From positions 1 through 40,572 of the forward strand of contig JAFASY010000306.1 of the NCBI GenBank assembly GCA_019244235.1: DNA of 40,572 nucleotides, given 5' to 3'. Position 1 is the first letter of the stretch. Each line of letters begins with the position of its first letter. Positions 4,474 to 38,604 of this stretch are shown here, piece after piece. The stretch comes from Chroococcidiopsidaceae cyanobacterium CP_BM_ER_R8_30 (GTDB taxonomy: Bacteria; Cyanobacteriota; Cyanobacteriia; Cyanobacteriales; Chroococcidiopsidaceae). The notes beneath the pieces are model-generated. The model saw nothing but the letters and a program-made list of their open reading frames with translations. It made no database searches and was not told the DNA's origin. Made by a program: the position numbers and the translations under genes.

Positions 4474-4719
4474 TTATTCCTTAGGAGAGCCATCTGGCGA
4501 AGAATCGAAAGGCTTTGCCGAATGAGCATCTTTCATTGCATCATTATGTTGTACTGGATCATAGTCAGACATATCAATATCATCAAATAAGTGATGATGT
4601 TTAACACAGACATAGGGTTTCAGGCTATGAGTCATCAGAACCGCATACAGATAGTCTAGTATGTACCACTTTGAAGACTCTGGACAGTCAGGAACGCAGC
4701 AACGAACGTTGATTTTCAT
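4474..4719 (-). CDS. Small Cys/His-rich hypothetical protein
   Basis: 81 residues. The N terminus carries RCCVPDCPE and, some 35 residues on, YVCVKHHH, so four cysteines and a histidine cluster could bind a metal. The C-terminal 30 residues are acidic and polar. No Shine-Dalgarno sequence precedes the ATG. It stands alone, convergent with the kinase gene, and I do not recognise a family. It could be a real small metal-binding protein or a chance frame; coding status is moderately likely because the cysteines are regularly spaced and the frame is full length between plausible signals. Confidence 0.45.
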   Translation of the reverse strand: MKINVRCCVPDCPESSKWYILDYLYAVLMTHSLKPYVCVKHHHLFDDIDMSDYDPVQHNDAMKDAHSAKPFDSSPDGSPKE

Positions 4720-5057
4720 GTTGTTGAGCGGTTAATTTGCAAATTCCAACACCAATGATGCTTAACACGGGCATAAAGTTTCAGCTCCACGCTTCCCTAT
4801 TTCAGCACGATTTAGTTATCGATATCAAGTTCGTTGAAACAGCCATAGTGTAGTTAAGCTGATGCCTTAGCCCACCAGGGAAACGCGAGTTAATCCTTCT
4901 TTCGGAAATACTGCTTGTTTTGTTGAGGACTGCGTTTAATCCTTTTGTGCCACTGGCAAGAGCGGAATATGGATTTAAAGGTTTTCTGATTAAAATTCTA
5001 TTCAACTACTGTATAATATTCAAATATGAAAGTTGATATTTTTGGGAGAAAATAAAT
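4720..5057. other. Intergenic region with promoter for the oxygenase gene
   Basis: No convincing gene. Near its right end a good Pribnow box, TATAAT at 5012-5017 preceded by TACTG, sits about 40 bases before the ATG of the downstream oxygenase and is the likely promoter. A 67-residue minus-strand frame at 4802-5005 was considered and not accepted. Confidence 0.45.
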
Positions 5058-5813
5058 ATGCTTTGTGCTGTTCGTCCCAGTATTTATCTGGAAGTAGAAA
5101 AATTCTCACTACTGTTTCGGACAGCAATTCCATTTCCTCATGTAGTAATTGATAACTTCTTAAATGAATCAGTAGCCGAGAAACTCGTTGAGGAATTTCC
5201 AAGAATTTCTTCAATGCACCGATGTCACCACTATTTATTTGCTAACAAATATGAATTATCTTCTTGGTCTAGCCTGTCTAACTCATTTTACATCCTTCAT
5301 CAAGAATTATTATCAAATCAGTTTAGTTCATTTATCTGCAAAATTTCTGGAGAATCTCTGTTTATAGATGCCGAAGTTTATGGAGATTTGCAGCAGGCAA
5401 ATAATGGAGGCTTTCTAGATATGCATGCAGACTCTAATTTACATCCTATCAGAGAAAACTGGATACATAGGTTAAATTTAATGATTTACCTAAACAAGAA
5501 TTGGCGGCAAGAGTATGGCGGTCATCTTCAATTAAAAAGTAATTTAGAGGAAATCGGCAAAAAATTTGCTCCTGTGTTTAATCGGTGCGTTATTATGCTT
5601 TCATCTGATACAACTTATCATGGTTATACTCGATTAAATATTCCTAATGATATGACTCGTAAATCTATTGTTATTCACTTTTATAAGCAAGAAGCTCTTA
5701 ACAAAGTACCCTTCAGAAAGATGACAACATGGATGCCAGAAAAACAGCTTAAGAGGAGTTTCGCTAAACTGTATAACCCACTAGCTTCATTAAAAAAGCG
5801 TTGGTGGGGATAG
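5058..5813 (+). CDS. 2OG-Fe(II) oxygenase family protein
   Basis: 251 residues from ATG 5058, which has a GGGAG Shine-Dalgarno sequence about 10 bases upstream. The iron-binding triad is visible: MHADSN supplies His123 and Asp125, and TYHGYTRL supplies His188; the 2-oxoglutarate-binding basic residue is Arg201 in TRKSIVIHFY. The spacing matches the prolyl-4-hydroxylase-like 2OG-Fe(II)_Oxy_3 group. Such enzymes hydroxylate proteins, small molecules or sugars; proteins of this type are often found in polysaccharide and glycosylation loci, and the gene is convergent with a large glycan cluster, so a role in glycan or glycoprotein modification is an inference. The C terminus is basic. Confidence 0.85.
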   Translation: MLCAVRPSIYLEVEKFSLLFRTAIPFPHVVIDNFLNESVAEKLVEEFPRISSMHRCHHYLFANKYELSSWSSLSNSFYILHQELLSNQFSSFICKISGESLFIDAEVYGDLQQANNGGFLDMHADSNLHPIRENWIHRLNLMIYLNKNWRQEYGGHLQLKSNLEEIGKKFAPVFNRCVIMLSSDTTYHGYTRLNIPNDMTRKSIVIHFYKQEALNKVPFRKMTTWMPEKQLKRSFAKLYNPLASLKKRWWG

Positions 5814-5827
5814 ATTGCTTCATAACT

Positions 5828-5847
5828 AACTGTATTACCATACAGTT
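5828..5847. terminator. Candidate hairpin between convergent genes
   Basis: AACTGTA (5828-5834) and TACAGTT (5841-5847) form a perfect 7-bp stem with a 6-base loop, 14 bases after the oxygenase stop and between two converging genes. The T tract is short, so it is a weak terminator candidate. Confidence 0.35.
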
Positions 5848-5961
5848 GATTTAACTACAGGTGTTGTGAAAGCGCTGTTAGTGTACTAATCCCCAAAATT
5901 AGTCAATGTTAGATGTGATTGCCCTGCCAGGGCGACGAAGTAGCCATGAATCTTTTAAAAG

Positions 5962-7098
5962 TCAAGTCTTGAGCAACCATTTTTTCAATGCGGATAGGTT
6001 TGTGTTTGGAATGTAGTACTGTGCTATTCGGCGAGCGATCCCTTCCCATTTTTTGTCGCCCGTCAGAGATGCCCAGTCAGCAAAACCACGAAAGACAGAC
6101 CGATAGCTCACCTTTTTCACCTTGCCACTTCTTGTAGTTTCTTGTCCTGCTGTGCGGGTATTGCCGTCATTACGAATTTTCCCAAGCGGCGTGATTCTTG
6201 TTTCCTCCCAAGAGAGTGCCCGATTAATCATTGCTATCACTTTAGGTGAAAGAGAATCTTTAGGGAAGTACCTCACCCACCGCTCGGCATAAAACACACC
6301 CACCATCTGGTAACTGCTATCATAGCCTCCTTTTTCTGGGTTAACCCCATTAGGGAGTTGTAGCGATAAACCATCCTTAATTGACTGACGGCCATAGTTC
6401 ATTAGCACTTGATCGCCAGTTAATTTGCCTGTAAGTCCTAAAGCAGTTGCAACCAGATAACGACGATGGGTATAGGGCTGGTTGCGTTTAGTTCCTCGAT
6501 TCCAGACATCCGGCGAAATCATCCACCTCGCAGCACGATGTACCAGAGGTGTGTAATGGGCTACTTGAGCAGCATACTGTCTTGACTGGGGAGATTGTTG
6601 AATCACCAACAGGGAGCGAGCCACCGCTTCCACAAAGAAAGAAGTGCTGTGAAAAGCATCCCCTGTTCCCTGAAAACTTCCATCGGTATCTTGATGGGCA
6701 AATCCCCAATCCATCATCTTAAATCCTGCTGCGATCGCCTGTGAATCATCTTTGACCAGCCCACCGATGATCGCTTCTTCACAGGGCAGCTGCTCTTCTA
6801 TGTACCATACCTTAGCCTGGTTACGTTCCCAAAGAACATTCATGCCGCTAGCACCACTGGGTGCCATTGACTTGTATAAATTATGTAGATTTCGGTAAAA
6901 GACATTGGCAATCAAATCAGTTGACTCATTCTCAAAATCTGTTCTTTCGGATAGTCGAGCCGAAAATTGCCTACTTTGCTCTGCATTGCTGGTAGAAGAT
7001 GCATCAGTGAATATCGGCGGCGTTATCATCGTCCTGCTTATGATCAGTGATAAAAAGAACCCTACTAGAACTCCAGTTCTTATCCATCCCATCTTCAT
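5962..7098 (-). CDS. Secreted alpha/alpha-toroid-like protein, possible polysaccharide lyase or hydrolase
   Basis: 378 residues from ATG 7098, chosen over GTG 7107 because GGAG lies 8 bases before it. An N-terminal hydrophobic segment (GVLVGFFLSLIISR) is a signal peptide or anchor. The body alternates helices with aromatic and glycine motifs such as GFAHQDTDGSFQG, NPEKGGYDSSYQMVG and ADWASLTGDKKWEG, the look of six-hairpin or incomplete toroid folds used by alginate and hyaluronate lyases and glycoside hydrolases. It is the last gene of the minus-strand glycan cluster, 71 to 80 bases after the flippase-methyltransferase fusion. A role in trimming or degrading the exported glycan is inferred; I cannot assign a family or name catalytic residues with certainty. 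Confidence 0.65.
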   Translation of the reverse strand: MKMGWIRTGVLVGFFLSLIISRTMITPPIFTDASSTSNAEQSRQFSARLSERTDFENESTDLIANVFYRNLHNLYKSMAPSGASGMNVLWERNQAKVWYIEEQLPCEEAIIGGLVKDDSQAIAAGFKMMDWGFAHQDTDGSFQGTGDAFHSTSFFVEAVARSLLVIQQSPQSRQYAAQVAHYTPLVHRAARWMISPDVWNRGTKRNQPYTHRRYLVATALGLTGKLTGDQVLMNYGRQSIKDGLSLQLPNGVNPEKGGYDSSYQMVGVFYAERWVRYFPKDSLSPKVIAMINRALSWEETRITPLGKIRNDGNTRTAGQETTRSGKVKKVSYRSVFRGFADWASLTGDKKWEGIARRIAQYYIPNTNLSALKKWLLKT

Positions 7099-7178
7099 TT
7101 CAACCACTCCACATATGGTGAATCATAAATTCATCTGCCTCATCTACGGTTAATTAAATTTTATTAGTCATGAGAGAA

Positions 7179-8915
7179 TCATAGCTTGGTGCAAAAATAT
7201 ATATCTTCATCTGTCATCAAACCAAATTTCTTACATTTATCGTTCCCCAATTCCTGGGCATAGCTATGAACTTTGACAGTAAATCCTGCTTGCTCAAGTT
7301 TACCTTTATAGTCACTACCATACATTCTCACATGGTCATGATGACCAAAGAGGCGTTCTCGCTCTTTAGGTGATAAATCACTGGAACCTTCAAGAGTCTG
7401 CTCAAGTTTAGGGTCAAGAGGTACATGTAAAATAGCCCATCCACCAGGCTTTAAAACTCGGCACAGTTCTTGCATAGCTTTCGCATCATTTGGTACATGT
7501 TCTAGGACATGACTACACAAAATCGCATCAAAGATATTATCTTCATATTGAATATCTGTGATATCCATTTGTACCATTGCTTCATGTAGTTGTAAATCTG
7601 CACTCAGATAACTAATATTAGGAAGATCAGAAATAGACTTTTTGAGAAGATATTCTGGAGCAATGTGAAGAACTTGAAGACTGCTTGAGAGAAGATTAGT
7701 TTTACTTTTGAGATAAAGCCATAATAAGCGATGCCTTTCTAAAGATAAACATCTAGGGCATATAGCGTTAGGTCGCCTTTGAACACCAAATGGCAGAAAC
7801 TTACGAAATTGACCTTCACAACAAGGGCAGAAAACTTGACTGCCACAATACCAGAGTGAGCAGATCTGGAGTAATGGTGTTCCAATCTTGAAAAAGAATG
7901 AACGTTTTTTGAGAAGGAATGGATATATTTTAAGAAAAAGAGAGCGCTTCATATCATCTACTCGCTTGATGTCCTGAAATCCGGCAGAATCTAATAGTAT
8001 TACTATTCCTCCAGGCAAAGCTAAAAGCCAACCCAGAATCGTCGTAGTGACAGATAGAAGAAGAGCTTGCTCTCCCGTCAAACCAATACGAGTAAATAGA
8101 TAAACCCATAAACCTTCTTTGACTCCCATTCCTCCCAAAGATATAGGAAGTAGAGTAATAACTGCCACAATGGGAATAAAAACTAAGAGTTCCAGATAGG
8201 AAATTTGGATTTTCAGTTGTTGCGCAACTAAATAGTGATAATAGACGATACCAAGCATTAATAGAAATGAGAGTAAAGTAGATAAAATTAAAGCTTGAGG
8301 GTGTCGGGCAAATTGCCTTAAAAGAATTTGTATTTTGGCAAATCGTGCGGCTAAACTTTGTAGGCAAAGTTTTTGTAGCCAAGGCTCGATTATCATTAAC
8401 AACCGAGGACTAATAATTAAAATAACACCTCCTACCAAAGCACCAACGCAGCCAAAGAATAGTAGAATAATATCCCAGCGCCCCACTATTTTTACAGCAG
8501 GAGGTAAACCCACAATAGCTAAAGCAGATAAAGCAAAAAGACCCGTAAATCTTTCCAAAAATACAGAGACAAGTGCTGCCTCAGAGTCTTTTGTTTGTTT
8601 CGCCACTCGATAGACACGATAGGCATCTCCTCCAAAGGAACCTGGTAGAAAGATATTGAGAAACATCCCAGCAAAATAGCTACTGAGTAAATTGCTTATT
8701 GGCATTGAATAACCAGAAGATCTCAGAACAACCTGCCAGCGTAAGCAACTCAACCATTGACAGCCCGTGTAGTAAATCAAAGCAAAGAAGACAAAAGGTA
8801 AAGATAGAGATTGAAACTGTTTCCAAGTTTGAGAAATATTTACATGAGTTAATATTATATCTATAAGACCTATACTCATTATTGTTTTAAAAATTACAAC
8901 TGGTTTGTTTTTCAC
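7179..8915 (-). CDS. Fusion of LPG-synthase/AglD-type transmembrane flippase domain and SAM methyltransferase
   Basis: 578 residues from GTG 8915, with AAGGAA about 8 bases upstream. Residues 1-321 are a polytopic membrane domain of the lysylphosphatidylglycerol synthase TM/UPF0104 type: FLPGSFGGDAYRVYR, SVFLERFTGLFA and the C-terminal LPISLGGMGVKEGLW are family hallmarks. Residues 322-578 are a class I methyltransferase: a zinc-ribbon-like start (FCPCCEG and ICPRCLSLERHRLLWLYL), LHIAPE for motif I, MDITDIQYEDNIFD, CSHVLEHVPND and LKPGGWAILHVP. The junction falls exactly at a Met (ATG 7952) where a stand-alone methyltransferase would begin. It sits within the glycan cluster between the giant GT-C and the secreted toroid protein. 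Both halves look intact. Substrates unknown. Confidence 0.85.
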   Translation of the reverse strand: MKNKPVVIFKTIMSIGLIDIILTHVNISQTWKQFQSLSLPFVFFALIYYTGCQWLSCLRWQVVLRSSGYSMPISNLLSSYFAGMFLNIFLPGSFGGDAYRVYRVAKQTKDSEAALVSVFLERFTGLFALSALAIVGLPPAVKIVGRWDIILLFFGCVGALVGGVILIISPRLLMIIEPWLQKLCLQSLAARFAKIQILLRQFARHPQALILSTLLSFLLMLGIVYYHYLVAQQLKIQISYLELLVFIPIVAVITLLPISLGGMGVKEGLWVYLFTRIGLTGEQALLLSVTTTILGWLLALPGGIVILLDSAGFQDIKRVDDMKRSLFLKIYPFLLKKRSFFFKIGTPLLQICSLWYCGSQVFCPCCEGQFRKFLPFGVQRRPNAICPRCLSLERHRLLWLYLKSKTNLLSSSLQVLHIAPEYLLKKSISDLPNISYLSADLQLHEAMVQMDITDIQYEDNIFDAILCSHVLEHVPNDAKAMQELCRVLKPGGWAILHVPLDPKLEQTLEGSSDLSPKERERLFGHHDHVRMYGSDYKGKLEQAGFTVKVHSYAQELGNDKCKKFGLMTDEDIYFCTKL

Positions 8916-9020
8916 TTTTATTTCCTTTTATATATCAATCCTAAAGAAATTACAGACGCCTCCCCTTATCCTCCTTGTTTCCTTTGTTCAGATCTCAATT
9001 ATGATTACTATATTTGAGTG

Positions 9021-12000
9021 TTAGTAAGCTCCTAAATCTTTGCCTTCATTGGATATAAGAGTTGGGAATCCATCTTCTGGTTGCCAAAGTCGCAGACGAC
9101 CACCAAAAGTTTCAAAAACAGGTTTACCAAGAAATTGAACATATTGAGCTAGTAGATGTTCAACTTTAGGCTGTCTAACATCATCTATATGAATCCAAAC
9201 ACGATGAGGCTGTTTTAGAATACGATTCATCTGATCTACGCTGTTAATTACTACCCCTCCTGCCCAACGGTCAATTAATCTATTATCATGCCAATACAAG
9301 GAGTCAAAATTTTCCGTTCCAAGATTTGCGAATAGGTAATAATCTAATTTCCCTAAGCTCGGTATTGCTGCTACTGGAACAGAGGAAACAACAATATCTC
9401 CTGATTGTTTGTGAATGCGAATATATTCAAAAATATCACTATGACGTCTCAGTATTGCTTCTTGATAGCTAGGTAAAATTCTCTCAGGTTGAATATTACC
9501 AACTAGCAGTAAAAGAAGACAGCTTAGAGCGATCAGTTTTAACGGTAGCAGATTGTCTAGTATCCATTGCATTCTTTTTCCTAGACTTTCCATTATGCAA
9601 ATACCACTGTAAACTGACAGCATAATAAATAATGGATAAACGCCGTAAACATATCTTTCTGCAAGAGTATAAGTTAAACATGTTACAATCAATATATTGA
9701 AAAATATACTAAAAAATAGAAAAATATATTTTCCATCCTTTCGCTTTATAAAGTAGATAAAGCCTGCAAAAAAAAGTAAGCTATATATCGTATGCATTCT
9801 ATCAGGACCAACAAAGAAAATATTAAATAGGTCTGTCATATCAGAGAAATGAAGCCTGAGATATGAAGCTGTAGCATCAGATAGCGCTGGTAAAGGAGTT
9901 AAAAGCTTTATAAGCGCGAAACACAGGTTACAGATAAAGATGGCTAGCGTCATCATACTACCCAATATGATTTGCCAGTCTTTTAATAAGCTGAAAGGCC
10001 GATAGAAGTAAAGAAAACCGATAAGAAATACTGGCAGAAGTGTTAAGTTAATTTCTTGAGTCAACAAGCTAAGAGTTAGAGCAATAAAGAAAATATATTG
10101 ATAGCACTTTCCTGTCTTGTCAATAAAGCCCTTTAAAAAAGACCAGAAACTGAGAATAGTAAAAAGTTGTAAAACTGGATAGAAACGAATATAACGAGAA
10201 TACCAAAGTTGCTCAGGATTTATAGCCAAAACTGCTGTAATAAATAAGGCAATCCATACTTTTTTAGTTAATTGACAAGCAATAATATAAACTACGATTA
10301 AAGTCGCTGTTCCCACTAGCGCGGATAGAAACCGGGCATTAACGATAGAATCTCCTACAAGCCTCAACCAAATAGCAAGTAAATAGTGATAGAAAGGACC
10401 CCTCGTGTACCAAATGCCAGAGGCTGCTATAGGAATACCTGTACGAAGAATGCCTCTAGTTGCGTCCAGTGAAGTATTTTCATCAGCATCCAAGGCCATA
10501 AAACCGAGGTGATAAATCCTCAGCCCGAAACCGATACTAATAATGATGACGAGGAAAACCCTTTCGCCCCAAGAAGACCACTGTTTTTGGAGAGCATCTT
10601 GTGATAGTAGAATTTGTTTGGGTTTTCGTGCCTGTATTTGGAGAGAAATTGATGCAACAATTCCAGTTAAAACAGCTAGAACAAGGATAAAAAAATTATT
10701 TCCTCCAAATGCTAAGCTCATACTCGCCCAGGCAACTAAACCTAGTATGGACCAGAGAAAGCATCTAGGGAATTTTCTCATATTTTGCTTGAGCAAGGTG
10801 AAGAGCAATGTCAACACGACAACGCCTATAAACCCAAGTAGTATTAGGTAATTGCTTTGTGGTTGGGCAAACAGCAATCCAGTTTCTGCTTCTGCATAGC
10901 GATGTTTGAGTAAACCGATGGCGATTAAAAACAAAGTCCCTGGCAACAGTGTTGCTGCTCCTATATTCAACACATCCCGCCAACTTTCGCGATGCCCTAG
11001 CCAAAGACCTAAAATTGGGACATAAATTAAAGCCAAGGCAATTCCTCCTAATTGCCAAAGACTCTGATGCCACAGGTAATTGGGGTAATTCAGCAGATAG
11101 GCATTGCCTTCAAAACTGTTTTTAAATTGTTGCGCTTGGGGTAAACCTAGAAAAGTTGCAGGTTGATCTTCACCTACACCTTCTGCCCAACCTGGCACAG
11201 TCTGGGTCAGAGACGTCCAAGTATTATCAGTCGCGATCGCTCCAACAATTTCACCCTTTTCTGTTTCTCCCCATCCATCTAACAAAAATTTCATGGAACC
11301 ATAATTGCTTTTGGCTAATTCTGGATTTAAAGGACTAGCCAAACTCACGGCTAAGATATTGTTGCCTGGGTGCAGAAGTTTTGTGACTTCTAATAGATGT
11401 AACTTGCTACTATCCTCAAGTTTGTAATGGTTCACCAAAGCTCCATTTAGCAACAAAGAATAATTGCTATTTCCAGCAAATCGAATATAGGCACGAGAAA
11501 TCCTGTTTGATGGTATTTGCCATACACCCCTGAGCCATACCTCACCTTTATAACTTTGAGTTCCACCGATCCAACTTCCTTGTAAAGAACGGTCAAATAA
11601 ATTTTGACTCAACCGACTGTAAGTAGCTTCTGTAACGGGACCAAGAACTTTAGCTTCAGACCAACTCTCATCAGGAAAATTTGGGTCAAACCATGGAACT
11701 GATTCCCTGCTTTCCCACAAATTCGAGATGCGCCAAGAAGTTGCTCCTGTTGTCAGGTTAATGGGAGCTGGATCAGCTACAGGATAAACAAACCCTTCAG
11801 CAACCGCACGTGGATTTGTTTGTCCTTTTTGAAGTTCCAATCCAATGACATTTTTACCTGGGCGTAAGAATGAAGTCAGGTTTATATAAGTAGTTAATTT
11901 CCAGTCGCGGGCACTAGCAAGTAAATAAGCGATGTGAGTCTTACGAAGGTAGGGATTACTATCGTTGAAACCTTGAAACGGCAAACTTCGTTTAGTACCT

Positions 12001-12308
12001 AAACCAGAAGAATTATTGAACGCGCTGGTGTCTATCGCCACCTGCTGTCCATTGATATAGACGATGAAATTATGATCGGCACTCAGTCTTAGCCACCCCG
12101 CCTTTGCATTGTCAGGTAAATAAAAGGTGTGACGGGCATAAAAACGGTAAGTTGGTGTTTGAGGAGCAATCCATTGGGCTTGTTGCGACCAAGCAACACG
12201 GTCTACTGGGGTAGATGTTTTCTCCCAGACAGAAAAACCTAACATACCTAGCAAAAGTCCCAATGTTAACACCAGTCCTAATGGCAACCACAGCTTTGAA
12301 CGCTTCAT
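9021..12308 (-). CDS. Giant GT-C (family 39-like) membrane glycosyltransferase with duplicated jelly-roll-like ectodomain
   Basis: 1095 residues, starting at an ATG that overlaps the stop of the TPR gene by four bases. After an N-terminal helix, residues about 30-400 hold two related beta-rich modules: the first has WLRLSADHNFIVYINGQQV, the second AYIRFAGNSNYSLLLNGALV, the accessory fold seen at the N terminus of alpha-L-rhamnosidases and other galactose-binding-like domains. From about 415 the protein is polytopic. Near residue 604 the motif DADENTSLDATRG, followed by YTRGPFYHYLL, gives the acidic pair in the first periplasmic loop of GT39/ArnT-like enzymes, which use polyprenyl-phosphate sugars. 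Function: transfer of a lipid-linked sugar on the periplasmic side; acceptor unknown. The ectodomain may bind the growing glycan. Confidence 0.82.
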   Translation of the reverse strand: MKRSKLWLPLGLVLTLGLLLGMLGFSVWEKTSTPVDRVAWSQQAQWIAPQTPTYRFYARHTFYLPDNAKAGWLRLSADHNFIVYINGQQVAIDTSAFNNSSGLGTKRSLPFQGFNDSNPYLRKTHIAYLLASARDWKLTTYINLTSFLRPGKNVIGLELQKGQTNPRAVAEGFVYPVADPAPINLTTGATSWRISNLWESRESVPWFDPNFPDESWSEAKVLGPVTEATYSRLSQNLFDRSLQGSWIGGTQSYKGEVWLRGVWQIPSNRISRAYIRFAGNSNYSLLLNGALVNHYKLEDSSKLHLLEVTKLLHPGNNILAVSLASPLNPELAKSNYGSMKFLLDGWGETEKGEIVGAIATDNTWTSLTQTVPGWAEGVGEDQPATFLGLPQAQQFKNSFEGNAYLLNYPNYLWHQSLWQLGGIALALIYVPILGLWLGHRESWRDVLNIGAATLLPGTLFLIAIGLLKHRYAEAETGLLFAQPQSNYLILLGFIGVVVLTLLFTLLKQNMRKFPRCFLWSILGLVAWASMSLAFGGNNFFILVLAVLTGIVASISLQIQARKPKQILLSQDALQKQWSSWGERVFLVIIISIGFGLRIYHLGFMALDADENTSLDATRGILRTGIPIAASGIWYTRGPFYHYLLAIWLRLVGDSIVNARFLSALVGTATLIVVYIIACQLTKKVWIALFITAVLAINPEQLWYSRYIRFYPVLQLFTILSFWSFLKGFIDKTGKCYQYIFFIALTLSLLTQEINLTLLPVFLIGFLYFYRPFSLLKDWQIILGSMMTLAIFICNLCFALIKLLTPLPALSDATASYLRLHFSDMTDLFNIFFVGPDRMHTIYSLLFFAGFIYFIKRKDGKYIFLFFSIFFNILIVTCLTYTLAERYVYGVYPLFIMLSVYSGICIMESLGKRMQWILDNLLPLKLIALSCLLLLLVGNIQPERILPSYQEAILRRHSDIFEYIRIHKQSGDIVVSSVPVAAIPSLGKLDYYLFANLGTENFDSLYWHDNRLIDRWAGGVVINSVDQMNRILKQPHRVWIHIDDVRQPKVEHLLAQYVQFLGKPVFETFGGRLRLWQPEDGFPTLISNEGKDLGAY

Positions 12309-13666
12309 TCTGGCTCCTCTGTTGAAGATCTACCCCAACTTTTATAATCAACAGATTGGCGATATCGTTCCCAGGTTTTGTTAACATCACCATTGTTATA
12401 TTCAGCCCAACTTAAATGCAAATAAGCTTGTCCCATTAAGCCAATTCTCTGCTGTTGAAAATATTGCTGTTCAGCAATGATTTGTTTAGCAATATCGGCA
12501 GATTTCTGAAATTCCCCATTCACAAAGCTAGCCAACATTAGGTCGTACAGAGCCTCCACGTGACCTGGAAAAACTTGCAATGTTCTTTCAAAAAGGTCTA
12601 CTGCACTTCCGGGATTTCTCTTATCAGGGTTATTCAAATAATTAACCCCTTCATTTAGAATTGTTGAAGCAAGATATCCCCTGGCTAAAAAGAAATCCTC
12701 TTGAATATCTAAGGATTTTTGGAAGTGGTTCTCTGCTGATTTAAAATCACCTATTTTATAGTCTTCTAGTCCCTTGACAAAGTTAATCAAAGATGGTTCG
12801 GGTTTATTTATATAAAACTCTGATCTTGCCAACCGCTCCCAAAAAGCTTCATCTCCCTGTAAAGGGGGATAACACAATGTTAGGGTTTTGCTAATATTTA
12901 CAACCTGTTCATACTCACCTTTAGCAAACTGAGCATCTAGTTTATAATTGACAATATTTACCGTAATTATTGAAACTAATATGATGAGTAGAAGTAATGA
13001 AGTTCCGGGTATGAAGAAACTCATATCCTTGATAAAAGCATTAATGCTTTGGTTTTCAAATCCTAAATAGAGCCCAATCAAGCTAAGTATCAGCCCAATA
13101 AGACTAAAACTCCAACCCCTACCAATAAACTCAAAGAAACTGTTGTTGTAACCAAATCCATTTAGTATAATTTGCTCCCATGAAGGCATTTGAAAAAATA
13201 GACTGCTCTGGATCGACATCTCAAAGATTGTCGGTGGTACGTCTGGCTGATCGAGGGATATATTCTGTTTCCATTGTGCTTGCACTTGAGAAAAATTTTT
13301 ATCTATATGTTGTGATACTGCTTCACCCTGGTTGTAATAAGCAGATGCGATGAAAGCCACACGAGGACTCCAAGTCGTAATGAAATAAGGAAAAATTAAA
13401 ACTGTTATCAATGCTGTTAAAAAAATTAATCGCGGAGCACAACTGATACTCAACCAGAAAGTAAAAGCCAGACTCAGAATGGCAAACATCGCTGCCAACA
13501 ATCTTCCCAAATTTGTGAAATTAAGATTGGTATGAAAAGTTTTTAAGGCTTGGGGCGGTAAATGATACCAGGGAAAGATCGCTCCCAAAACTAAAACTAG
13601 AGACGCTATGAAAAGCGTGATTTTTGCTCTATCAAACCAGTTAAGTAAGCGTTGCAACTTGTTCAT
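12305..13666 (-). CDS. TPR-containing integral membrane protein of the glycan cluster
   Basis: 453 residues. The N-terminal half has about four to five hydrophobic segments (near residues 15-35, 50-75, 80-100, 180-205 and 220-240), with an extracytoplasmic loop between the third and fourth. The C-terminal half is helical with TPR-like repeats: YKIGDFKSAENHFQKSLDIQ, AVDLFERTLQVFPGHVEALY and ASFVNGEFQKSADIAKQII. It ends in a four-base ATGA overlap with the giant glycosyltransferase, so the two are probably translationally coupled and may form a complex. TPRs usually mediate protein contacts. The specific function is unknown; a scaffold for the glycosyltransferase is inference from coupling. Confidence 0.72.
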   Translation of the reverse strand: MNKLQRLLNWFDRAKITLFIASLVLVLGAIFPWYHLPPQALKTFHTNLNFTNLGRLLAAMFAILSLAFTFWLSISCAPRLIFLTALITVLIFPYFITTWSPRVAFIASAYYNQGEAVSQHIDKNFSQVQAQWKQNISLDQPDVPPTIFEMSIQSSLFFQMPSWEQIILNGFGYNNSFFEFIGRGWSFSLIGLILSLIGLYLGFENQSINAFIKDMSFFIPGTSLLLLIILVSIITVNIVNYKLDAQFAKGEYEQVVNISKTLTLCYPPLQGDEAFWERLARSEFYINKPEPSLINFVKGLEDYKIGDFKSAENHFQKSLDIQEDFFLARGYLASTILNEGVNYLNNPDKRNPGSAVDLFERTLQVFPGHVEALYDLMLASFVNGEFQKSADIAKQIIAEQQYFQQQRIGLMGQAYLHLSWAEYNNGDVNKTWERYRQSVDYKSWGRSSTEEPE

Positions 13667-13679
13667 AGCAAATTATATC

Positions 13680-15044
13680 TTAAGGAAGCCGATCAGTTGC
13701 CACTTCTGTAGACTGGATATGCAAGCGATCGCCAGGATTCAAAGCTCTGGGAGTAAGGACAACTTGTTCACCAAGCTTCAATCCTGCTATGACTTCCCGT
13801 TGGTTGTCGAATGTTTTCCCTAGCTTCACTTTTTTGACAACAGCTTTGTCGGCTTCAGCAACCATCACCATCCCTTCACCAGCAGATAAATGAGTAACGG
13901 CATCTTCTGGGATAACTAAGCTTTTCTTAGCTTGATCAAACTCAATGTAGCCCTGCAAACCTGGTGGCATTTGCAGATCATTGACAGCAACCCAAACATT
14001 ATAGGTATACTGCCGATCAGCACCCACTTGAGCAGTGGAGTTAACTGTTTGTGTGTTGACTGTGGGATTAAGTCGGATTACCCGCCCTTGGAAAGTTTGT
14101 CCCGGGTACGACACCAAGCGAATTGTAGCTTTATCCCCCATCTTGATAGCGTTGATCCGCGCTTGATCGACATAAGCTTTGAACACAATATCTTGAGTTA
14201 GCGCCATCAGAGGGTTGCTACTAGAGACATTTTTGACATTCGCTACTTCTCCACTATGAATATTGAGCTGACTGACTAGAGCATCGTTAGGAGCGTAAAT
14301 TACTGTATGGTTTAAGTCTCTCAAAGCATTTTGCAGAACTATTTTGTTATTTTCAAGAGTCAGACGATTACTTTCAATTTGTTGGTTTAAGTTTATCTCA
14401 GTACTAGCTAAGGTTTGCTGTTGGTTAATTAGGTTATTTTTACTAGTAAGATAAAGAGCTTCTATGTCATAGAACTGTAGTTTTTTGATGGCCCCTTGTT
14501 CTACTATGGGAATAATTTGTTTTAACTTAGTTTCCGCAATAGCTAACTGCTCCTTAGCATTCTCTACATTGGCTTTTAGTTCCATCAATTGTTCTCGCGC
14601 AGACTTTTGTAAAGCCTCTAAAGTGGCTTGAGAAATAGCTATATTGTTACGGGCAGTACTAACGGCATTTTTGAAAGGAGTCTGCTCTATTTGGATCAGA
14701 GGCTGGTTTTGAAGCACTCGCTGTCCGTCCACAACATAAACTTTTTCCACAGGTCCCGATACTAGAGGGAGAACGCTGACCTGCTGTAGAGCGACGGATT
14801 CGCCTGGTGCGGCTACACTATCCTCTAAACTCTTTGCTGTTACTGAGGCTGTCTCAACTTCAATTGGTTTACCAGTCAAACGTTGCAGAGCAGGATAACC
14901 AACATCTGAAGAATAGAACCTTGACTGTGGATCTTTCAAAGCTGGGAAAAGCACGGTGACAGAGAGAATCCCTATCATGCCTAAAGGACCTAATACCAGA
15001 GTTGTCAGAACTGTACGGGAAAAAACGGGGTGAAATCGAATCAT
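13680..15044 (-). CDS. HlyD/RND-type periplasmic adaptor (membrane fusion) protein
   Basis: 454 residues from ATG 15044, whose ATGA overlaps the stop of the upstream GT4 gene; a longer in-frame start at 15116 would lie inside that gene and is rejected. An N-terminal helix (VLTTLVLGPLGMIGILSVTV) is followed by the biotinyl-lipoyl half PLVSGPVEKVYVVDGQRV, a long coiled coil with repeated Gln and Leu (about residues 125-240), the second lipoyl half VIYAPNDALVSQLNIHSGEV, a beta barrel and a membrane-proximal domain near GLKLGEQVVL. These are the standard parts of an adaptor bridging an inner-membrane transporter and an outer-membrane channel. No transporter or TolC gene is nearby, so the partner must be elsewhere. 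Confidence 0.85.
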   Translation of the reverse strand: MIRFHPVFSRTVLTTLVLGPLGMIGILSVTVLFPALKDPQSRFYSSDVGYPALQRLTGKPIEVETASVTAKSLEDSVAAPGESVALQQVSVLPLVSGPVEKVYVVDGQRVLQNQPLIQIEQTPFKNAVSTARNNIAISQATLEALQKSAREQLMELKANVENAKEQLAIAETKLKQIIPIVEQGAIKKLQFYDIEALYLTSKNNLINQQQTLASTEINLNQQIESNRLTLENNKIVLQNALRDLNHTVIYAPNDALVSQLNIHSGEVANVKNVSSSNPLMALTQDIVFKAYVDQARINAIKMGDKATIRLVSYPGQTFQGRVIRLNPTVNTQTVNSTAQVGADRQYTYNVWVAVNDLQMPPGLQGYIEFDQAKKSLVIPEDAVTHLSAGEGMVMVAEADKAVVKKVKLGKTFDNQREVIAGLKLGEQVVLTPRALNPGDRLHIQSTEVATDRLP

Positions 15045-16273
15045 TTTCCTACAAGAGTCGTAGAGAGAGAATCTAATGAGGCTGCTTCCAAAGCTGCGGA
15101 GAATACATTCTGCCACATTGGGACAATGCGAGACCAGCTAAAACGGGTTTGGACATCCTGCAAACCGTTCCGACCCATCTGTGCTGCTCGATTTGGATCT
15201 GCTAAGAGGGTTAGGATAGCTTGTGCTAGAGCTTCTGGATTTTTTTGTGGTACTAGCAATCCCGTTAGCCCCGATTGGATCACATCTACAATACCGCCGA
15301 CCGCACTTGCAATCACAGGCTTTTGGTGAGCTAAAGCTTCTATCATGACAATTCCTAAACCTTCAGTATCACCTTTGCTGTCTACAATAGCTGGCAATAC
15401 AAAAATGTCACATCTAGCATATTCAACAGCCAGTTCTTCTTTACTGACAAATCCCAAAAACTCCACTACATTCTCCAAATTCAGAGTAATGCATTGGGAT
15501 TTAATTTCTTGCTCAAGAATTCCCTTGCCCACAACTCGCAAGCATACAGGCTGTTTAGCCAAAACTAGGGGTAGAGCTTCCAGTAAATATCGCAAACCCT
15601 TGCGCTCATCTAGTCTTCCTACAAACAGGAGCCTAGGTATCTCTGTTGTTGGACGTTCTTGAGGTGGTTTAGCCTCTATAGTAAGACCGTATGGGATAAC
15701 AGTAACTGGTCCACTATAAAGTTTACGAATCAATCCTAAAGTAAAAGAAGAATTGGCTGTAACACCACTAGTCATGGGTAATAGCCAGCGTAGGACATCT
15801 GCCACAAAACTAAACTTATTGACTAACAAAAGTTCGGCTCCGTGGAAGCTAAACACCATTGGAATGCTGAGTAATTTGCTGGCAGGCCAAGCCATCAATC
15901 CATGAGGGAAAGGCCAATGGATTTGGAGTAGGTCCGGCTTTTCTTTGCGGCACACCCAAAACAGTTGCCAGCTACCTAAAAGAATATACAAAGCAGCAAC
16001 TACTAAATAGAGAGGCTGCCTTTGGAGCTTGGTAGGCGCTCCATCACGCACTAGGTTTTCAAAACGTTTTAGACAGTAACGAAAGCGATAGACTTGAATG
16101 TAATCTAATGTATAGCTTTTACAACCCTCGTAGGCAGGAGCAAAAACGGTGAACTTAGCCCCTGTGGGTCGAGAGCGTAAAATTGCTTCTCGTACAAAAG
16201 AACCATGATTACCTTCAGGAGAATGAGGATAGACAGAAGTGAAGACTAATATATGCTTGCCTTGAAGATCCAT
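15041..16273 (-). CDS. Glycosyltransferase family 4
   Basis: 410 residues from ATG 16273 (a TTG at 16315 extends the frame but gives no extra domain). The N-terminal Rossmann domain starts HILVFTSVYPHSPEGNHGSF, the typical GT4 glycine loop; the C-terminal nucleotide-sugar domain has LLFVGRLDERKGLRYLLEAL, the acidic motif EGLGIVMIEAL (the GT4 E-x7-E), and AVGGIVDVI near the end. Retaining GT-B enzyme using a nucleotide sugar, cytoplasmic or peripheral to the membrane. It follows the GT2 gene by about 146 bases and is coupled to the adaptor gene by an ATGA overlap. Sugar donor and acceptor cannot be read from the sequence. Confidence 0.9.
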   Translation of the reverse strand: MDLQGKHILVFTSVYPHSPEGNHGSFVREAILRSRPTGAKFTVFAPAYEGCKSYTLDYIQVYRFRYCLKRFENLVRDGAPTKLQRQPLYLVVAALYILLGSWQLFWVCRKEKPDLLQIHWPFPHGLMAWPASKLLSIPMVFSFHGAELLLVNKFSFVADVLRWLLPMTSGVTANSSFTLGLIRKLYSGPVTVIPYGLTIEAKPPQERPTTEIPRLLFVGRLDERKGLRYLLEALPLVLAKQPVCLRVVGKGILEQEIKSQCITLNLENVVEFLGFVSKEELAVEYARCDIFVLPAIVDSKGDTEGLGIVMIEALAHQKPVIASAVGGIVDVIQSGLTGLLVPQKNPEALAQAILTLLADPNRAAQMGRNGLQDVQTRFSWSRIVPMWQNVFSAALEAASLDSLSTTLVGK

Positions 16274-16419
16274 AACAATCGGAGTAGCACTAAAACATAA
16301 AGGAATAATGTACAAATTTTGAGGTCAAAAACATAGAAATTAAGCCTAGAAGATCTGTTTAATCCTAAACGGTACTGTGTATAAAGCTTACACTGCTATC
16401 AAGCATCAACTACCGTTTT

Positions 16420-17202
16420 CTAAGCTATCTGCTCATCCCTAAATGGAGTAATGTATTCTAAATGAGCTGTAGAAAGTAGACGACCTTTAGTTTGGAACCA
16501 CCACCAAAGCTGCCAGAAATCGATAGCTGAAGAAATGAGACGTCCACGACCAAATTTACTCTTCCCAGAGTATCGAGGATGCCAAGGGGTAGGAACCTCT
16601 GTGATACGATAGCCCCAGCCTGCTAGTACTGCCAGAATGTAGCGATGAGTAATCAGATCTAGTGGTAGAGCAGTCAACACATCCCGACGGACTATTTTGA
16701 TCCAGTTCATATCATGAACTTTTAGCCCGAAGGCCAAACGACAAATAGAATTGGCCAATGCAGAAGCAAAGATTTTGCCATCACCACGCTTCTGCCGCCA
16801 ACCTGCTACTCCATCTACTCCAGGTAGACAGGCTTGTAATAGCAAAGGTAAATCGGTTCGAAAGTCAGACTCCAAATCGGCTTGGCCCCAGTAGATCCAA
16901 TCGCTGCTGGTATATGCTAAGGCTGTTTTCCATACCCCCGTCACACCCCGTCTACAGGGATGTCGAATGACTTGTAGAAATGAATACTGTTGACTTAAGT
17001 CAGTAAGAAGCTGAGGGCTATTATCCGTACTTCCATCATCAATTAACAGCACAGGCAAAGTAAAACCAATATCCTGAAAGGTCTGATCGAGAACAAGCAT
17101 GAGCTTTGCTAAATTCCCCTCTTCGTTAAGGGCAGGAATTACTATAGTTACAGAACGGCTCTCTTGCGGAGACGGAATGCGAGTAAGGGTAGGTTTGTTC
17201 AT
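16420..17202 (-). CDS. Glycosyltransferase family 2 (dolichyl-phosphate-mannose-synthase-like)
   Basis: 260 residues from ATG 17202, with a good AGGAGA Shine-Dalgarno sequence 7 bases upstream. GT-A signatures are VTIVIPALNEEGNLAKL, LLIDDGSTDNSPQLL and the metal-binding QADLES; HDMNWIKIVRRDVL and TEVPTPWHPRYSGKSKFGRG match the acceptor side of the DPM1-like group that loads a sugar on a polyprenyl phosphate. There is no C-terminal membrane pair, so it is peripheral or cytoplasmic. As the first gene of the minus-strand cluster it would supply the lipid-linked sugar donor that the GT39-like enzyme downstream requires; this pairing is inference but biochemically coherent. Confidence 0.88.
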   Translation of the reverse strand: MNKPTLTRIPSPQESRSVTIVIPALNEEGNLAKLMLVLDQTFQDIGFTLPVLLIDDGSTDNSPQLLTDLSQQYSFLQVIRHPCRRGVTGVWKTALAYTSSDWIYWGQADLESDFRTDLPLLLQACLPGVDGVAGWRQKRGDGKIFASALANSICRLAFGLKVHDMNWIKIVRRDVLTALPLDLITHRYILAVLAGWGYRITEVPTPWHPRYSGKSKFGRGRLISSAIDFWQLWWWFQTKGRLLSTAHLEYITPFRDEQIA

Positions 17203-18134: not shown

Positions 18135-19700
18135 TTATTCATGTAACTGCTCGATTAATTCTGTAGTTATATAATCCATAACTACAGGATTTTGCGTAAA
18201 CCCAGTCGAATCTATCTCAATCAGTGATCGCTGCGTTAAAGATGTTAAAGCCTCCATTAATTGAGCTTGTGAGCTAGATAGCGCCATGTCTTCAGCAAGT
18301 TCTAGGAAAGAGATAGGTTCCCGGTTAATCGCCAGCCAGTACATAATCTGCTTCTCAAAATCTGATAGGCGACTAGCCTGTAGATCTAACAGATCCCGAA
18401 TCTCGCCAAAGACCAAAGTTCCTGATTGCAACAACTCTAGAAACTTAAGAATACTGCGCTCAAATAAGTCTTCAATTGCTGCTGCCACCATCTTTAGTGC
18501 TAGGGGATTACCAGCATAGTGTTCGATTAATATTCTCCACTCTGAATCGGAGCCAAAGAATTCACCCTTAGCCTCAAAGATTTTCTGTGCTTCTGCTTGT
18601 TGTAAGCCCTTTAGTTTTAAGGCACGAACTGGTAGGTTTTGACCTAACTTTGGAGCAAATCCTTTGGGTGTTTCACGGCTAGTTAGTACGAGACAACTTT
18701 GATGAGATATTTCTCCTACACATCTTAGAAGCTGGCCGTAACCTTCATATCCGGCTTGATACCGACCACAGTGTGCGCTCCATGAGTCCTCCAAGGCACT
18801 TCCACACAGAATCGACTCAAAGTTATCCAGCACTAGTAGACAGCGTGAGCCACGTAAATAATCTATTAATCGGCATATCTTACCGTTTACGGTAGTTGGT
18901 AAATCAACGTTCTCCCAGAGGGAACCTCTGGGAGCAACGCTAAAGACTTCGTCAATTTCTTGCTGTTGGGAGAGAAATTTGATCAAATCCGCTAAGAGTT
19001 CCTGGATGGGTGGAGCATTTCTCAAACTACGCCAGATTAACCACTCGAAGTCTGTTTGAACCTGTTCTGCTAACTTGACGGTCAGAGCCGTTTTGCCGAT
19101 GCCGACCATACCAAACACTGCTACAAGTCTACAATGCTCCTGCACAATCCACTGTTTCAGAGTGCTGAGTTCTGCTGTGCGCCCATAAAACATCGATACG
19201 TCAATCGCTTCTTCCCAGTCTTGATACTGGTTGGCAGCTGCTACTGCAAAATCTATTTTTTTAAGAGTTGGTTTCGAAGTATGAGTCTGAGTGGGCTGCT
19301 GAGTACTAACAACAATATCTGTATCTGTGATGTCTTGAGTTATAGATTTTGCTTGAGCTTGCGCTCTTGAATTGCCAGAGCCGTCTCCGGCAAACCCTTG
19401 GGCTTGCGCTCTTGAGTTGCCGGAGCAGCCACAGGCATTACCTTGAGTCTGTTGCCATCTCCGCCTTAAAACTGTCCGAAGATTACTTTTGGTTACCTTC
19501 TCCCCTAATACTCGACCGAGTAATCGCCACAACTGACAGCCCACATACTTGATGTAATCAGTATCGTAACCAGACATAGCAGCAATTTCTGTATAGGTTC
19601 TTTCTTCCCAAACTTGGCAAAAAACCAGCTCTTGAACATTTGTTAAATGCTCTTCTTGAAGAACCGTATCCAGAATTACCAAGGCATCTTCAATAGTCAT
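18135..19700 (-). CDS. STAND NTPase with vMAP-like N-terminal domain and NB-ARC domain, truncated by a premature stop
   Basis: 521 residues from ATG 19700 (TTG 19718 is possible). Residues 1-85 (TIEDALVILDTVL, RTYTEIAAMSGYD, LWRLLGRVLGEKVTKSNL) match the N-terminal helical domain of cyanobacterial vWA-MoxR-associated proteins. A Gly/Ala/Gln linker with a 45-base tandem duplication follows. The NB-ARC domain has VFGMVGIGKTALT (P-loop near residue 203), CLLVLDNFES (Walker B near 295), SCLVLTSRETP and GNPLALKMVA, then a winged helix ending VVMDYITTELIEQL. Sensor repeats are lost (see the remnant at 17585-18134), so it can at best make a switch without sensor. Such proteins are signal-transducing ATPases, often with immune or cell-death roles. 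Probably a pseudogene. Confidence 0.78.
   Translation of the reverse strand: MTIEDALVILDTVLQEEHLTNVQELVFCQVWEERTYTEIAAMSGYDTDYIKYVGCQLWRLLGRVLGEKVTKSNLRTVLRRRWQQTQGNACGCSGNSRAQAQGFAGDGSGNSRAQAQAKSITQDITDTDIVVSTQQPTQTHTSKPTLKKIDFAVAAANQYQDWEEAIDVSMFYGRTAELSTLKQWIVQEHCRLVAVFGMVGIGKTALTVKLAEQVQTDFEWLIWRSLRNAPPIQELLADLIKFLSQQQEIDEVFSVAPRGSLWENVDLPTTVNGKICRLIDYLRGSRCLLVLDNFESILCGSALEDSWSAHCGRYQAGYEGYGQLLRCVGEISHQSCLVLTSRETPKGFAPKLGQNLPVRALKLKGLQQAEAQKIFEAKGEFFGSDSEWRILIEHYAGNPLALKMVAAAIEDLFERSILKFLELLQSGTLVFGEIRDLLDLQASRLSDFEKQIMYWLAINREPISFLELAEDMALSSSQAQLMEALTSLTQRSLIEIDSTGFTQNPVVMDYITTELIEQLHE
18912..18934. repeat. In-gene palindromic repeat (NB-ARC gene)
   Basis: CTCCCAGAGG at 18912-18921 and CCTCTGGGAG at 18925-18934 form a perfect 10-bp stem around GAA. 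The same design, stem-GAA-stem, occurs at 31867-31885. In the protein it encodes part of VAPRGSLWENVDL, a segment in a variable loop, so it looks like an in-frame insertion. Confidence 0.65.
19357..19425. repeat. 45-base tandem duplication in the linker of the NB-ARC gene
   Basis: The 24-base stretch at 19357-19380 recurs at 19402-19425 with two substitutions; the offset of 45 bases is 15 codons. The encoded protein repeats GNSRAQAQ twice in the flexible linker between the vMAP-like and NB-ARC domains. The flanks contain short GCCGGAG/CTCCGGC words, as in the other dispersed palindromic repeats of the window. Confidence 0.65.
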
Positions 19701-20310
19701 AGTTTGAATATAATTCAAGAAAATGTTCTTAAAATAACAGTATTTATTCTGAAAATGTTATATCACTCCCTACCTACGGTTTGAATTTCTAACTATTAAT
19801 CAGTGTCTTGTCCTTCTTACATGTAAATACCCGATTCCTTTAATATTTTTTTACAAAACTGCCATTACCAATAGAATTTAATTTCTTAACGCCAGAGTTA
19901 AGAATCGTAATCAACTTTTTTTGATTGTTACAAGTCCCAGAACTGAGGCAATGACCTTTCTGCTTACTTCAGAATATTCTAAAATCCTACGTGATTTGTA
20001 TCCTACAAAACACATAACTTTTTATAACTTTTTATCATTGCTTGGATGGAGTCTCAGACATAAACTCTACTTCTACAGAGACAAACCTTATAACTTCAGC
20101 ATAGTACTGGTAGTTTAGTAAAGGTTAAATCTGAGAATCGCAAATACTATAAAAAATCTCAGAAATACCAAAGGATCAGCTTTACTCTGCAAGCAGCTAC
20201 TTACATTTCTCTGAAAAAAGTATCCATTTTAACCAAACAGTGGTTGTAGGAATCCTGTAAGGTGGCCTTACATGTGTGAGACGATTAAGAACTTTACACC
20301 TAATTGAGCT
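19701..20310. promoter_or_regulatory. Divergent intergenic region between two vMAP-type STAND genes
   Basis: About 610 bases without a convincing gene (a 65-residue frame at 19921-20118 lacks coding character). Near the right end, TGTAAGG at 20256-20262 and CCTTACA at 20266-20272 form a perfect 7-bp hairpin with a TGG loop, 38 bases before the AAA gene; it is a candidate operator or leader hairpin. A second, looser inverted repeat is TCTGAGA (20130-20136) with TCTCAGA (20157-20163). Confidence 0.35.
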
Positions 20311-21693
20311 ATGGAATTCGAAGAAATATTTACAGTTGTCGATGCAGAAGTCTTTGCCAAGACAAAAAGACGCCTGAAGGATGTAGAAAGATTTGTCCTA
20401 CAAGGAGCAAGCCTTGGTCAGACTTATGACGAGATGGCTAAGGCTTCCGCTTATCGATATACCCCTAGCTATCTCAAGCAGGATATTGGTCCCAAGTTAT
20501 GGAAGCAGCTTTCGGAGGTACTAGGGGAAGACATCAGTAAAACCAATTTTCAATCTGCTCTAGTACGGCAAGCGCAATTGCTACCAGCAGCTCAAAAGCG
20601 CCAAGAGCTAGCAGAAAAGCTGTATGAGACAGAAGCTAAAGGATATGAGAGAAATCATGCCCCTCTAAAACTAGTGGGAGAAACACCTCGAAGTTTTTTA
20701 GCGCCAACCTATCGGGAACGGTCAGTAGAAGGAGTGCGACTCCAAGAAGAAAAGCAACTAGCTTGCTCATTGACACCTACTAGTTTGGAGCCAAGAAAGA
20801 ATAACCGTCCGGCGAAGCTGAGCTTGGCTGATTCAAGAATGCCATGGTCTACCACTTCTTCACTCTCTTCTTTCGTTGCTGGTCCACCAATTACCCATCC
20901 TCGCCACTTTTTTGGTCGCGAACGCGAATTAAAACGCATCTTCAACTTGTACAAACACTTGCCTTTACAAAACGCAGCAGTCATTGGTCCGCGACAAAGT
21001 GGCAAGACATCCCTGCTTAAGTATTTGAAGACCATCACTACCGCATCACCAGTAGAGTTGCGCCCAGAGCAACATGCTAACTGGCTACCAATACCAGAGC
21101 TTTACCACTGGGTTTTTATAGACTTCCAGGACCCGCGTTTAGGAACTCGGGAGGGATTACTACGCTACCTGTTAACCTGCCTAGAGCTACCCACACCTGC
21201 ATCTTTCGACTTAGATCATTTTTTGGATGTGGTGAGCTGCAACCTTCGCACGCGTACAGTGTTCCTATTTGACGAGATTGGTATTGCTCTACAACGTTAC
21301 AGGGAATTAGATGATTGCTTCTGGGATAGCCTACGCTCGTTAGCTAGTCATCAAGTTGGCAACCTAGCTTTTATATTGGCAAGCCATGAGCCACCCAAGC
21401 AACTGGCTGAACAAAGTTCTCTTCACTCTCCGTTCTTTAACAGCTTCGGTTACACCACCCAGTTAAAACCATTAACCCAGGAGGAGAGTCGCGAATTGAT
21501 TTCCAGTTCGCCCCTACCCTTTCCTCCTTTGGATGTAGATTGGATATTAGCCCAAAGTAAATGCTGGCCAGTCCTGCTACAAATTCTCTGCCGAGAACGC
21601 CTCATTGCCTTAGAATCTAGTGAAACTCATGACACCTGGAAACAAGAGGGTTTAGCTCACCTTAAGCCTTACAGATATTTGTTAGAGGAGTAG
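20311..21693 (+). CDS. vMAP-type AAA/STAND ATPase
   Basis: 460 residues from ATG 20311. Residues 1-90 (FEEIFTVVDAEVFAKTKRRL, TYDEMAKASAYRYTPSYLKQ, LWKQLSEVLGEDISKTNF) are the same N-terminal helical domain as in the divergent NB-ARC gene and in cyanobacterial vWA-MoxR-associated ATPases. A variable linker follows, then a P-loop ATPase: HFFGRERELKRI, VIGPRQSGKTSLLKYL (Walker A near residue 225-240), TVFLFDEIGIAL (Walker B near 330) and FILASHEPP (sensor). The end is a small helical lid; no sensor repeats are present, so it is shorter than typical relatives. Signal-transducing ATPase; partner unknown. The next gene downstream encodes a double-glycine-leader peptide. Confidence 0.8.
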   Translation: MEFEEIFTVVDAEVFAKTKRRLKDVERFVLQGASLGQTYDEMAKASAYRYTPSYLKQDIGPKLWKQLSEVLGEDISKTNFQSALVRQAQLLPAAQKRQELAEKLYETEAKGYERNHAPLKLVGETPRSFLAPTYRERSVEGVRLQEEKQLACSLTPTSLEPRKNNRPAKLSLADSRMPWSTTSSLSSFVAGPPITHPRHFFGRERELKRIFNLYKHLPLQNAAVIGPRQSGKTSLLKYLKTITTASPVELRPEQHANWLPIPELYHWVFIDFQDPRLGTREGLLRYLLTCLELPTPASFDLDHFLDVVSCNLRTRTVFLFDEIGIALQRYRELDDCFWDSLRSLASHQVGNLAFILASHEPPKQLAEQSSLHSPFFNSFGYTTQLKPLTQEESRELISSSPLPFPPLDVDWILAQSKCWPVLLQILCRERLIALESSETHDTWKQEGLAHLKPYRYLLEE

Positions 21694-36875: not shown

Positions 36876-37092
36876 AGGATGTCTACAGATACCGTATAGC
36901 CCTAATTATAGGGCTTCTGATTATTCTTCTTGAAAAGAAAATACCTGACTATTGATTTTAGTCTGACATTAGCCTAACAAAAGATATTAACCACATATCT
37001 TATATTAAATCAGCCGACTTGACATCTCTTACACCTAGAATTAAGATAGAACTTATATGCAGGTTGCAGAGCGAGTTGGAGCCAGAGACTTT
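36876..37092 (+). promoter_or_regulatory. Promoter and operator-like repeat of the Xre-RES pair
   Basis: TTGACA at 37019-37024, a 17-base spacer and TAAGAT at 37042-37047 form a good sigma-70-type promoter. Transcription would start near 37054, which makes ATG 37057 leaderless and supports ATG 37093. Upstream, AAGATAT (36981-36987) and ATATCTT (36995-37001) form an inverted repeat with 7-base spacing, a plausible autoregulatory site. Confidence 0.6.
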
Positions 37093-38579: not shown

Positions 38580-38596
38580 TGTACAAAGAATGTACA
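38580..38596. promoter_or_regulatory. Paired TGTACA operator-like sites in the RHH-tnpB divergent gap
   Basis: Two palindromic hexamers TGTACA stand 11 bases apart, about one helical turn, within the 28-base gap between the RHH start and the tnpB start. This spacing is typical of binding sites for two ribbon-helix-helix dimers. A repressor here would block both starts. Confidence 0.5.
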
Positions 38597-38604
38597 ATAA
38601 GGCT

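Follow-up and report, generated by a model that had tools for sequence, protein, structure and literature searches.

The fused frame and its operon

The window, by which we mean the whole 40,572-nucleotide stretch of DNA analysed here, carries a minus-strand open frame that runs from 8915 to 7179 without an internal stop codon; the plus strand in the same register contains numerous stop codons. A first-pass annotation had read this frame as a flippase-like membrane domain of the LPG-synthase/AglD type followed by a methyltransferase whose own start methionine lies at the junction, and both points are borne out. The membrane part matches LPG_synthase_TM (PF03706; residues 8-301, E 2.5e-38, 132.7 bits against a Pfam cut-off of 33.4) and the NCBIfam "flippase-like domain" TIGR00374 (E 4.3e-17, 62.5 bits, cut-off 43.2). 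The second part, a class I methyltransferase, matches the Pfam families Methyltransf_11 (residues 446-495, E 6.7e-15, 55.9 bits, cut-off 21.2) and Methyltransf_23 (residues 444-547, E 1.5e-12, 47.9 bits, cut-off 27), and the Met322 codon occupies 7952-7950, at the domain junction. The frame belongs to a minus-strand operon with the gene order GT2, GT4, HlyD, TPR, GT-C, flippase-methyltransferase and a 381-aa protein. The features are as follows:

7179..8915, minus strand: fused ORF of 578 codons, frame opening with a GTG start
7953..8915, minus strand: flippase-like membrane domain (PF03706/TIGR00374), residues 1-321; orthologues elsewhere terminate near the same point
7179..7952, minus strand: methyltransferase part (residues 322-578), including two CPxC pairs; it is its own gene, starting at a homologous ATG, in 10 of 10 genomes found with the pair adjacent
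7950..7958, minus strand: junction codons 320-322 (GAT GAT ATG); about 30 nt present in Rhizonema, with a stop and a GAGG ribosome site, are absent
8916..8940, minus strand: AAAAGGAAAT, the ribosome site before the GTG start; identical in both Rhizonema
16420..17202, minus strand: GT2 glycosyltransferase; best NCBIfam match the ArnC model, below cut-off
15041..16315, minus strand: GT4 glycosyltransferase (Pfam/NCBIfam)
13680..15116, minus strand: HlyD-type periplasmic adaptor (Pfam/NCBIfam)
12305..13666, minus strand: operon TPR protein (Pfam and synteny)
9021..12308, minus strand: GT-C/PMT-like glycosyltransferase, 1095 aa; PF13231, with TIGR03663 (Agl23) below cut-off
5962..7107, minus strand: 381-aa protein; most of the loci compared have a relative of it downstream of the same set of genes

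The frame is not due to chance, because both of its parts have homologues that are 85-91% identical and evolve at a dN/dS of 0.16-0.22. Four cysteines of the methyltransferase part (C363, C366, C386 and C389, the two CPxC pairs) are invariant in 26 chosen methyltransferase loci that we aligned. They fit the putative zinc ribbon proposed in the first-pass annotation, but the Pfam scan matched no zinc-ribbon model in the fused protein. The last hydrophobic segment of the membrane domain spans residues 289-307 and is followed by a K/R-rich stretch. An AlphaFold model of the fused protein, built on a five-row alignment, had a mean pLDDT of 34.3 and was useless.

Among the other operon genes, the GT2 gene matches PF00535, with the PgfS model as well as ArnC matched below the NCBIfam cut-off, and the GT-C gene matches PMT_2 (31.8 bits, cut-off 26.1). 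Within the limits applied, searches of Pfam, NCBIfam and PDB sequences gave no match to the 381-aa protein. Beyond it, a 2OG-Fe(II) oxygenase (5058-5813) has a 48% relative inside the same operon in one other genome (G346), and on the other side two NB-ARC/AAA-type ATPase genes (18135-19718 and 20311-21693) adjoin the operon. Farther along the window lie two adjacent genes with a weak HTH match and a RES domain (37057-38351), a layout that we take to be that of an Xre/RES toxin-antitoxin pair, and a TnpB-like OrfB_IS605-type gene with a Cas12f1-like TNB domain (38590-39885). The 105-base spacer that precedes the GTG start is single-copy in the genome. Between the genes for GT-C and flippase the window has about 78 bases (8931-9009) that are missing from six aligned relatives, and at 7189-7197 it lacks about 160 bases that both Rhizonema carry close to where the methyltransferase gene ends.

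The junction and the paired genes of relatives

The closest relatives of the fused protein are encoded by two Rhizonema metagenome-assembled genomes, sp. PD37 (L044) and sp. PD38 (L043), with proteins 85-91% identical depending on the part. A scan of GTDB contigs with exact peptide patterns, which detects close relatives only, returned these same two loci at 86%. Rhizonema is a nostocalean cyanobacterium that lives in lichens, and the window's genome belongs to the same order and to another family (f1).

Both genes lie next to each other at 12 loci in 10 genomes (G360/PD37, G509/PD38, G137, G326, G346, G473, G480, G424, G105 and G091). The flippase frame is closed by a stop codon in all 10, and the methyltransferase begins at an ATG homologous to Met322; the paired genes are 3-179 nt apart and share a frame in four genomes and differ in frame in six. 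Two of the 10, G105 and G091, have an in-frame TTG farther upstream of the methyltransferase ATG, and the flippase frame of G105 is apparently broken. The remark in the first-pass annotation that such methyltransferases usually stand alone is right. At least 22 other genomes (13 plus 8 plus G664) have the flippase without a neighbouring methyltransferase match, a count that includes at least five (G022, G059, G404, G182 and G092) in which the contig ends nearby or the gene is split, so that the absence may be only apparent; in G327 the methyltransferase match is on a different contig from the flippase. The methyltransferase is therefore an optional partner.

The junction alignment sets the window against five rows, which come from four genomes (L043, L044, L021, L023 and L024, of which L021 and L044 are one and the same Rhizonema genome). 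Compared with Rhizonema, the window is without about 30 nt that contain the stop codon of the flippase gene and the ribosome site of the methyltransferase gene, and the frame is retained. Where Rhizonema has TAA, a second TAA and GAGGAATTT before the methyltransferase ATG, the window passes from GTAGATGA directly to TATG. The first-pass annotation had named a stop codon lost in this strain, with two separate genes in relatives, as the finding that would count against its reading, and this is largely what we see: all 10 pairs are separate and a spacer of about 30 nt has gone. A one-base frameshift or a single lost stop as the cause is ruled out by the length of the missing stretch relative to Rhizonema.

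The frame could be fused in the DNA while translation also begins at Met322, giving a free methyltransferase beside the fusion or as the main active form. The start codon is homologous in all 10 pairs, and a weak site is left before it, with a pairing energy to the ribosomal tail of -4.0, which 18% of in-frame positions equal or better. This value falls within the range of -7.8 to -2.4 found across the 10 relatives, of which G424 pairs most weakly (-2.4), so Met322 may still serve as a start. Against this, the GAGG site of Rhizonema, where pairing before the methyltransferase is -5.9, is lost in the window, and 8 of the 10 relatives reach -5.9 or better; the GTG start of the fused frame retains a ribosome site with a pairing of -5.8. 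On balance we think internal initiation rather unlikely.

The join could instead be an artefact of assembly or sequencing, the true genome having the spacer with its stop and ribosome site and making two separate proteins. The genome is a draft in 328 contigs (97.18% complete, 1.59% contamination), and the fusion is found in no other genome among the matches listed. An artefact would, however, need about 30 nt to vanish and yet leave an open frame. No direct repeat lies at the junction in a listing of repeats of at least 14 nt over 4500-9300, to which the lost stretch itself is invisible. Two adjacent spacers likewise differ from Rhizonema through long indels, as expected under real divergence. 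Because the difference spans many bases and lies in a region with further long indels, the alignment suggests that a deletion of about 30 nt is more likely real than a base-call error, and we consider an artefact very improbable.

Selection, ancestry and the search for other fusions

Both halves of the protein have been under purifying selection since the split from Rhizonema, the dN/dS between the window and Rhizonema being 0.205-0.223 in the flippase half and 0.159-0.192 in the methyltransferase half; these values span the entire time since that divergence and do not isolate the period after the deletion. Among columns on which four outgroups concur, changes private to the window occur in 10 of 261 flippase and 6 of 216 methyltransferase columns, compared with 5 and 2, respectively, that are common to both Rhizonema. 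The excess could reflect branch length or mild relaxation.

Trees were built from 46 chosen loci, which gave 31 flippase and 27 methyltransferase rows with the window included; other loci, such as the split G092 gene and certain distant methyltransferases, were left out. The window groups with PD37 and PD38 at supports of 100/97 and 98/97, apart from the own-family flippases (G001, G007 and G012), which are placed elsewhere. Methyltransferases that neighbour a flippase, the window's among them, form one clade of 11 of the 27 rows (support 100/99), in trees that leave several inner branches open and have some long terminal ones.

The order of the operon is kept in Rhizonema, with DNA identity of 82-88% over about 5993-16274 and 73% over the GT2 gene. 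An operon of this order but lacking the methyltransferase is present in the own-family genome G001, and in G012, also of that family, the order holds for most genes. Protein identities of GT4 and GT2 to G001 (77% and 70%) come near those to Rhizonema (80% and 71%), whereas for the flippase they are far apart, at 69% against 85-86%. The flanks behave differently from the operon: the segment at 825-2078 is closest to own-family G005 (74%), with Rhizonema at 68% and the own-family G001, G007 and G012 at 67-68%, and the segment at 31757-33880 has its best match within the window's own family. For aspS the margin is small (G005 88%, G013 and G003 87%, G326 86%, own-family G006 83%, Rhizonema G360 83%; no match above the limit in Rhizonema G509). 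Contamination of the contig as the full explanation is rejected, because the flanking genes are not Rhizonema-like and have their best matches in the own family, subject to that small margin for aspS. A Rhizonema-like operon between own-family-like flanks suggests that most of the operon was exchanged horizontally with a lineage resembling Rhizonema. The direction of that exchange is a guess based on the paired version being commonest in family f33.

The first-pass annotation had proposed looking for the same two-domain architecture in other genomes. Whole-protein queries covered 40 related genomes (E up to 1e-3), 388 of the order (1e-25), 217 of the G360 family (1e-80), 10 of the G105 family (1e-80) and 386 of the phylum (1e-50), and among the matches listed in these overlapping sets no other uninterrupted frame extends over both parts, although distant fusions could fall below limits of this kind. 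Methyltransferase matches in frames above 500 aa in the 40-genome search (G000:C11, G037:C3 and G005:C1) proved free of PF03706 when scanned, and none of 18 matching plasmid records covers 80% of the query. A PF03706 search of 244 genomes of the phylum gave a match in 161, with at least five frames above 500 aa besides the window's; in the five listed, the scan found no methyltransferase match. Their partners were GT2 (two), HAD (one), PF03706 only (one) and an MprF-like arrangement (one), the last in a 906-aa protein of G646 that matches PF09924. The two GT2 proteins, both from G545 (L081 363-2147 and L082 1621-3414), have the glycosyltransferase C-terminal to PF03706, the opposite order to AglD, so the C-terminal end of PF03706 is able to carry an enzyme. 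In G077 a HAD hydrolase domain precedes PF03706 in a single 531-aa frame (L083 946-2541). Among the matches listed from open-licence PubMed Central, titles and abstract openings yielded no report of a PF03706-methyltransferase fusion, which may be in print elsewhere, and none of a bacterial gene fusion.

A proposed role and its known counterparts

We consider it reasonably probable that a lineage-specific, in-frame loss of the spacer of about 30 nt joined neighbouring flippase and methyltransferase genes, in an operon that resembles a three-component system and methylates its sugar or glycan intermediate. As judged from gene arrangement, the fusion seems to have arisen locally and not to mark a novel type of enzyme, because the relatives examined with adjacent genes all keep them separate. 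The two proteins probably cooperated already before they were joined.

Two strands of earlier work frame the proposed mechanism. The excerpted text of PMC5898192 describes PF03706/UPF0104 proteins as likely flippases, some of them with two domains and with PMT-like and AglD-like neighbours in archaea; in three-component systems, according to the excerpt of PMC11127046, a polyprenyl-phosphate sugar is made inside, moved across the membrane and used outside. In the window, polyprenyl phosphate would receive a sugar from the DPM1/ArnC-like GT2; the PF03706 protein, a candidate carrier with a predicted flipping function, would take the lipid-linked sugar through the inner membrane, on whose outer side it would be transferred by the GT-C enzyme. 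The methyltransferase may act in the cytoplasm, before transfer or while it proceeds, and methylate the lipid-linked sugar or a different intermediate of the glycan. Both jobs would fall to the fused protein, in which the positively charged tail of the membrane domain would hold the methyltransferase at the cytoplasmic face. Since SAM is cytoplasmic and a K/R-rich stretch follows the last hydrophobic segment, we expect the added domain on the cytoplasmic side, and the simplest reading is then that the lipid-linked sugar is methylated before it is transferred.

The first-pass annotation went further, suggesting that one polypeptide would link the movement or attachment of a lipid-linked compound to methyl capping and might in this way end glycan chains. 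Coupling is plausible because flippase and methyltransferase genes adjoin in genomes of several families, but nothing in the analysis independently favours chain-ending methyl capping, and the operon looks more like one that adds a sugar through a lipid-linked donor. More specific still is the idea that the spacer was lost after the operon was exchanged between families, leaving a flippase-tethered methyltransferase that passes methylated lipid-linked sugar to its carrier, with the coupling itself advantageous; we hold this to be distinctly unlikely. That the fusion is an adaptive, bifunctional enzyme ending glycan chains by methyl capping is highly doubtful: the join is in frame, both halves are constrained and methyl capping of glycans exists in other systems, but about one third of random deletions would keep the frame, Pfam and NCBIfam revealed neither a chain polymerase nor a length-control protein in the operon, and a single genome is involved.

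Carriers of the PF03706 type are poorly understood, and an enzyme fused from a neighbouring gene hints at the step that the carrier serves. The fusion suggests that methylation and transfer share one lipid-linked compound, as the recurring neighbourhood already did; being the event of one genome, it is weak evidence taken alone. Addition of an enzyme to PF03706 is already known from MprF and AglD (PMC5898192, in the part excerpted); our searches showed no second case with a methyltransferase as the partner.

The nearest counterparts are the tandem genes of Rhizonema sp. PD37 and PD38, which encode the same two proteins (85-91% by part) in the same operon order, but there the two reading frames stay apart, with stop codons and a ribosome site in between. 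MprF likewise fuses a PF03706 membrane domain to an enzyme domain (LPG_synthase_C), whereas the window's enzyme is a methyltransferase and its protein has no match to PF09924, the lysyltransferase domain. In AglD, too, PF03706 is joined to a glycan enzyme, with the GT2 domain first and PF03706 after it (excerpt of PMC5898192), while in the window PF03706 begins at residue 8 and no GT2 is matched. The L081 and L082 proteins share with the window an enzyme at the C-terminal end of PF03706, although their partner is a GT2. At the level of the operon, the closest parallel is with Gtr-type three-component systems (GtrB, GtrA and GT-C), whose operons also combine a GT2 and a membrane carrier with a GT-C enzyme (PMC11127046, excerpted part); the window's version differs in having a PF03706 protein as candidate carrier rather than GtrA or MATE and in its additional TPR, HlyD, GT4 and methyltransferase genes.
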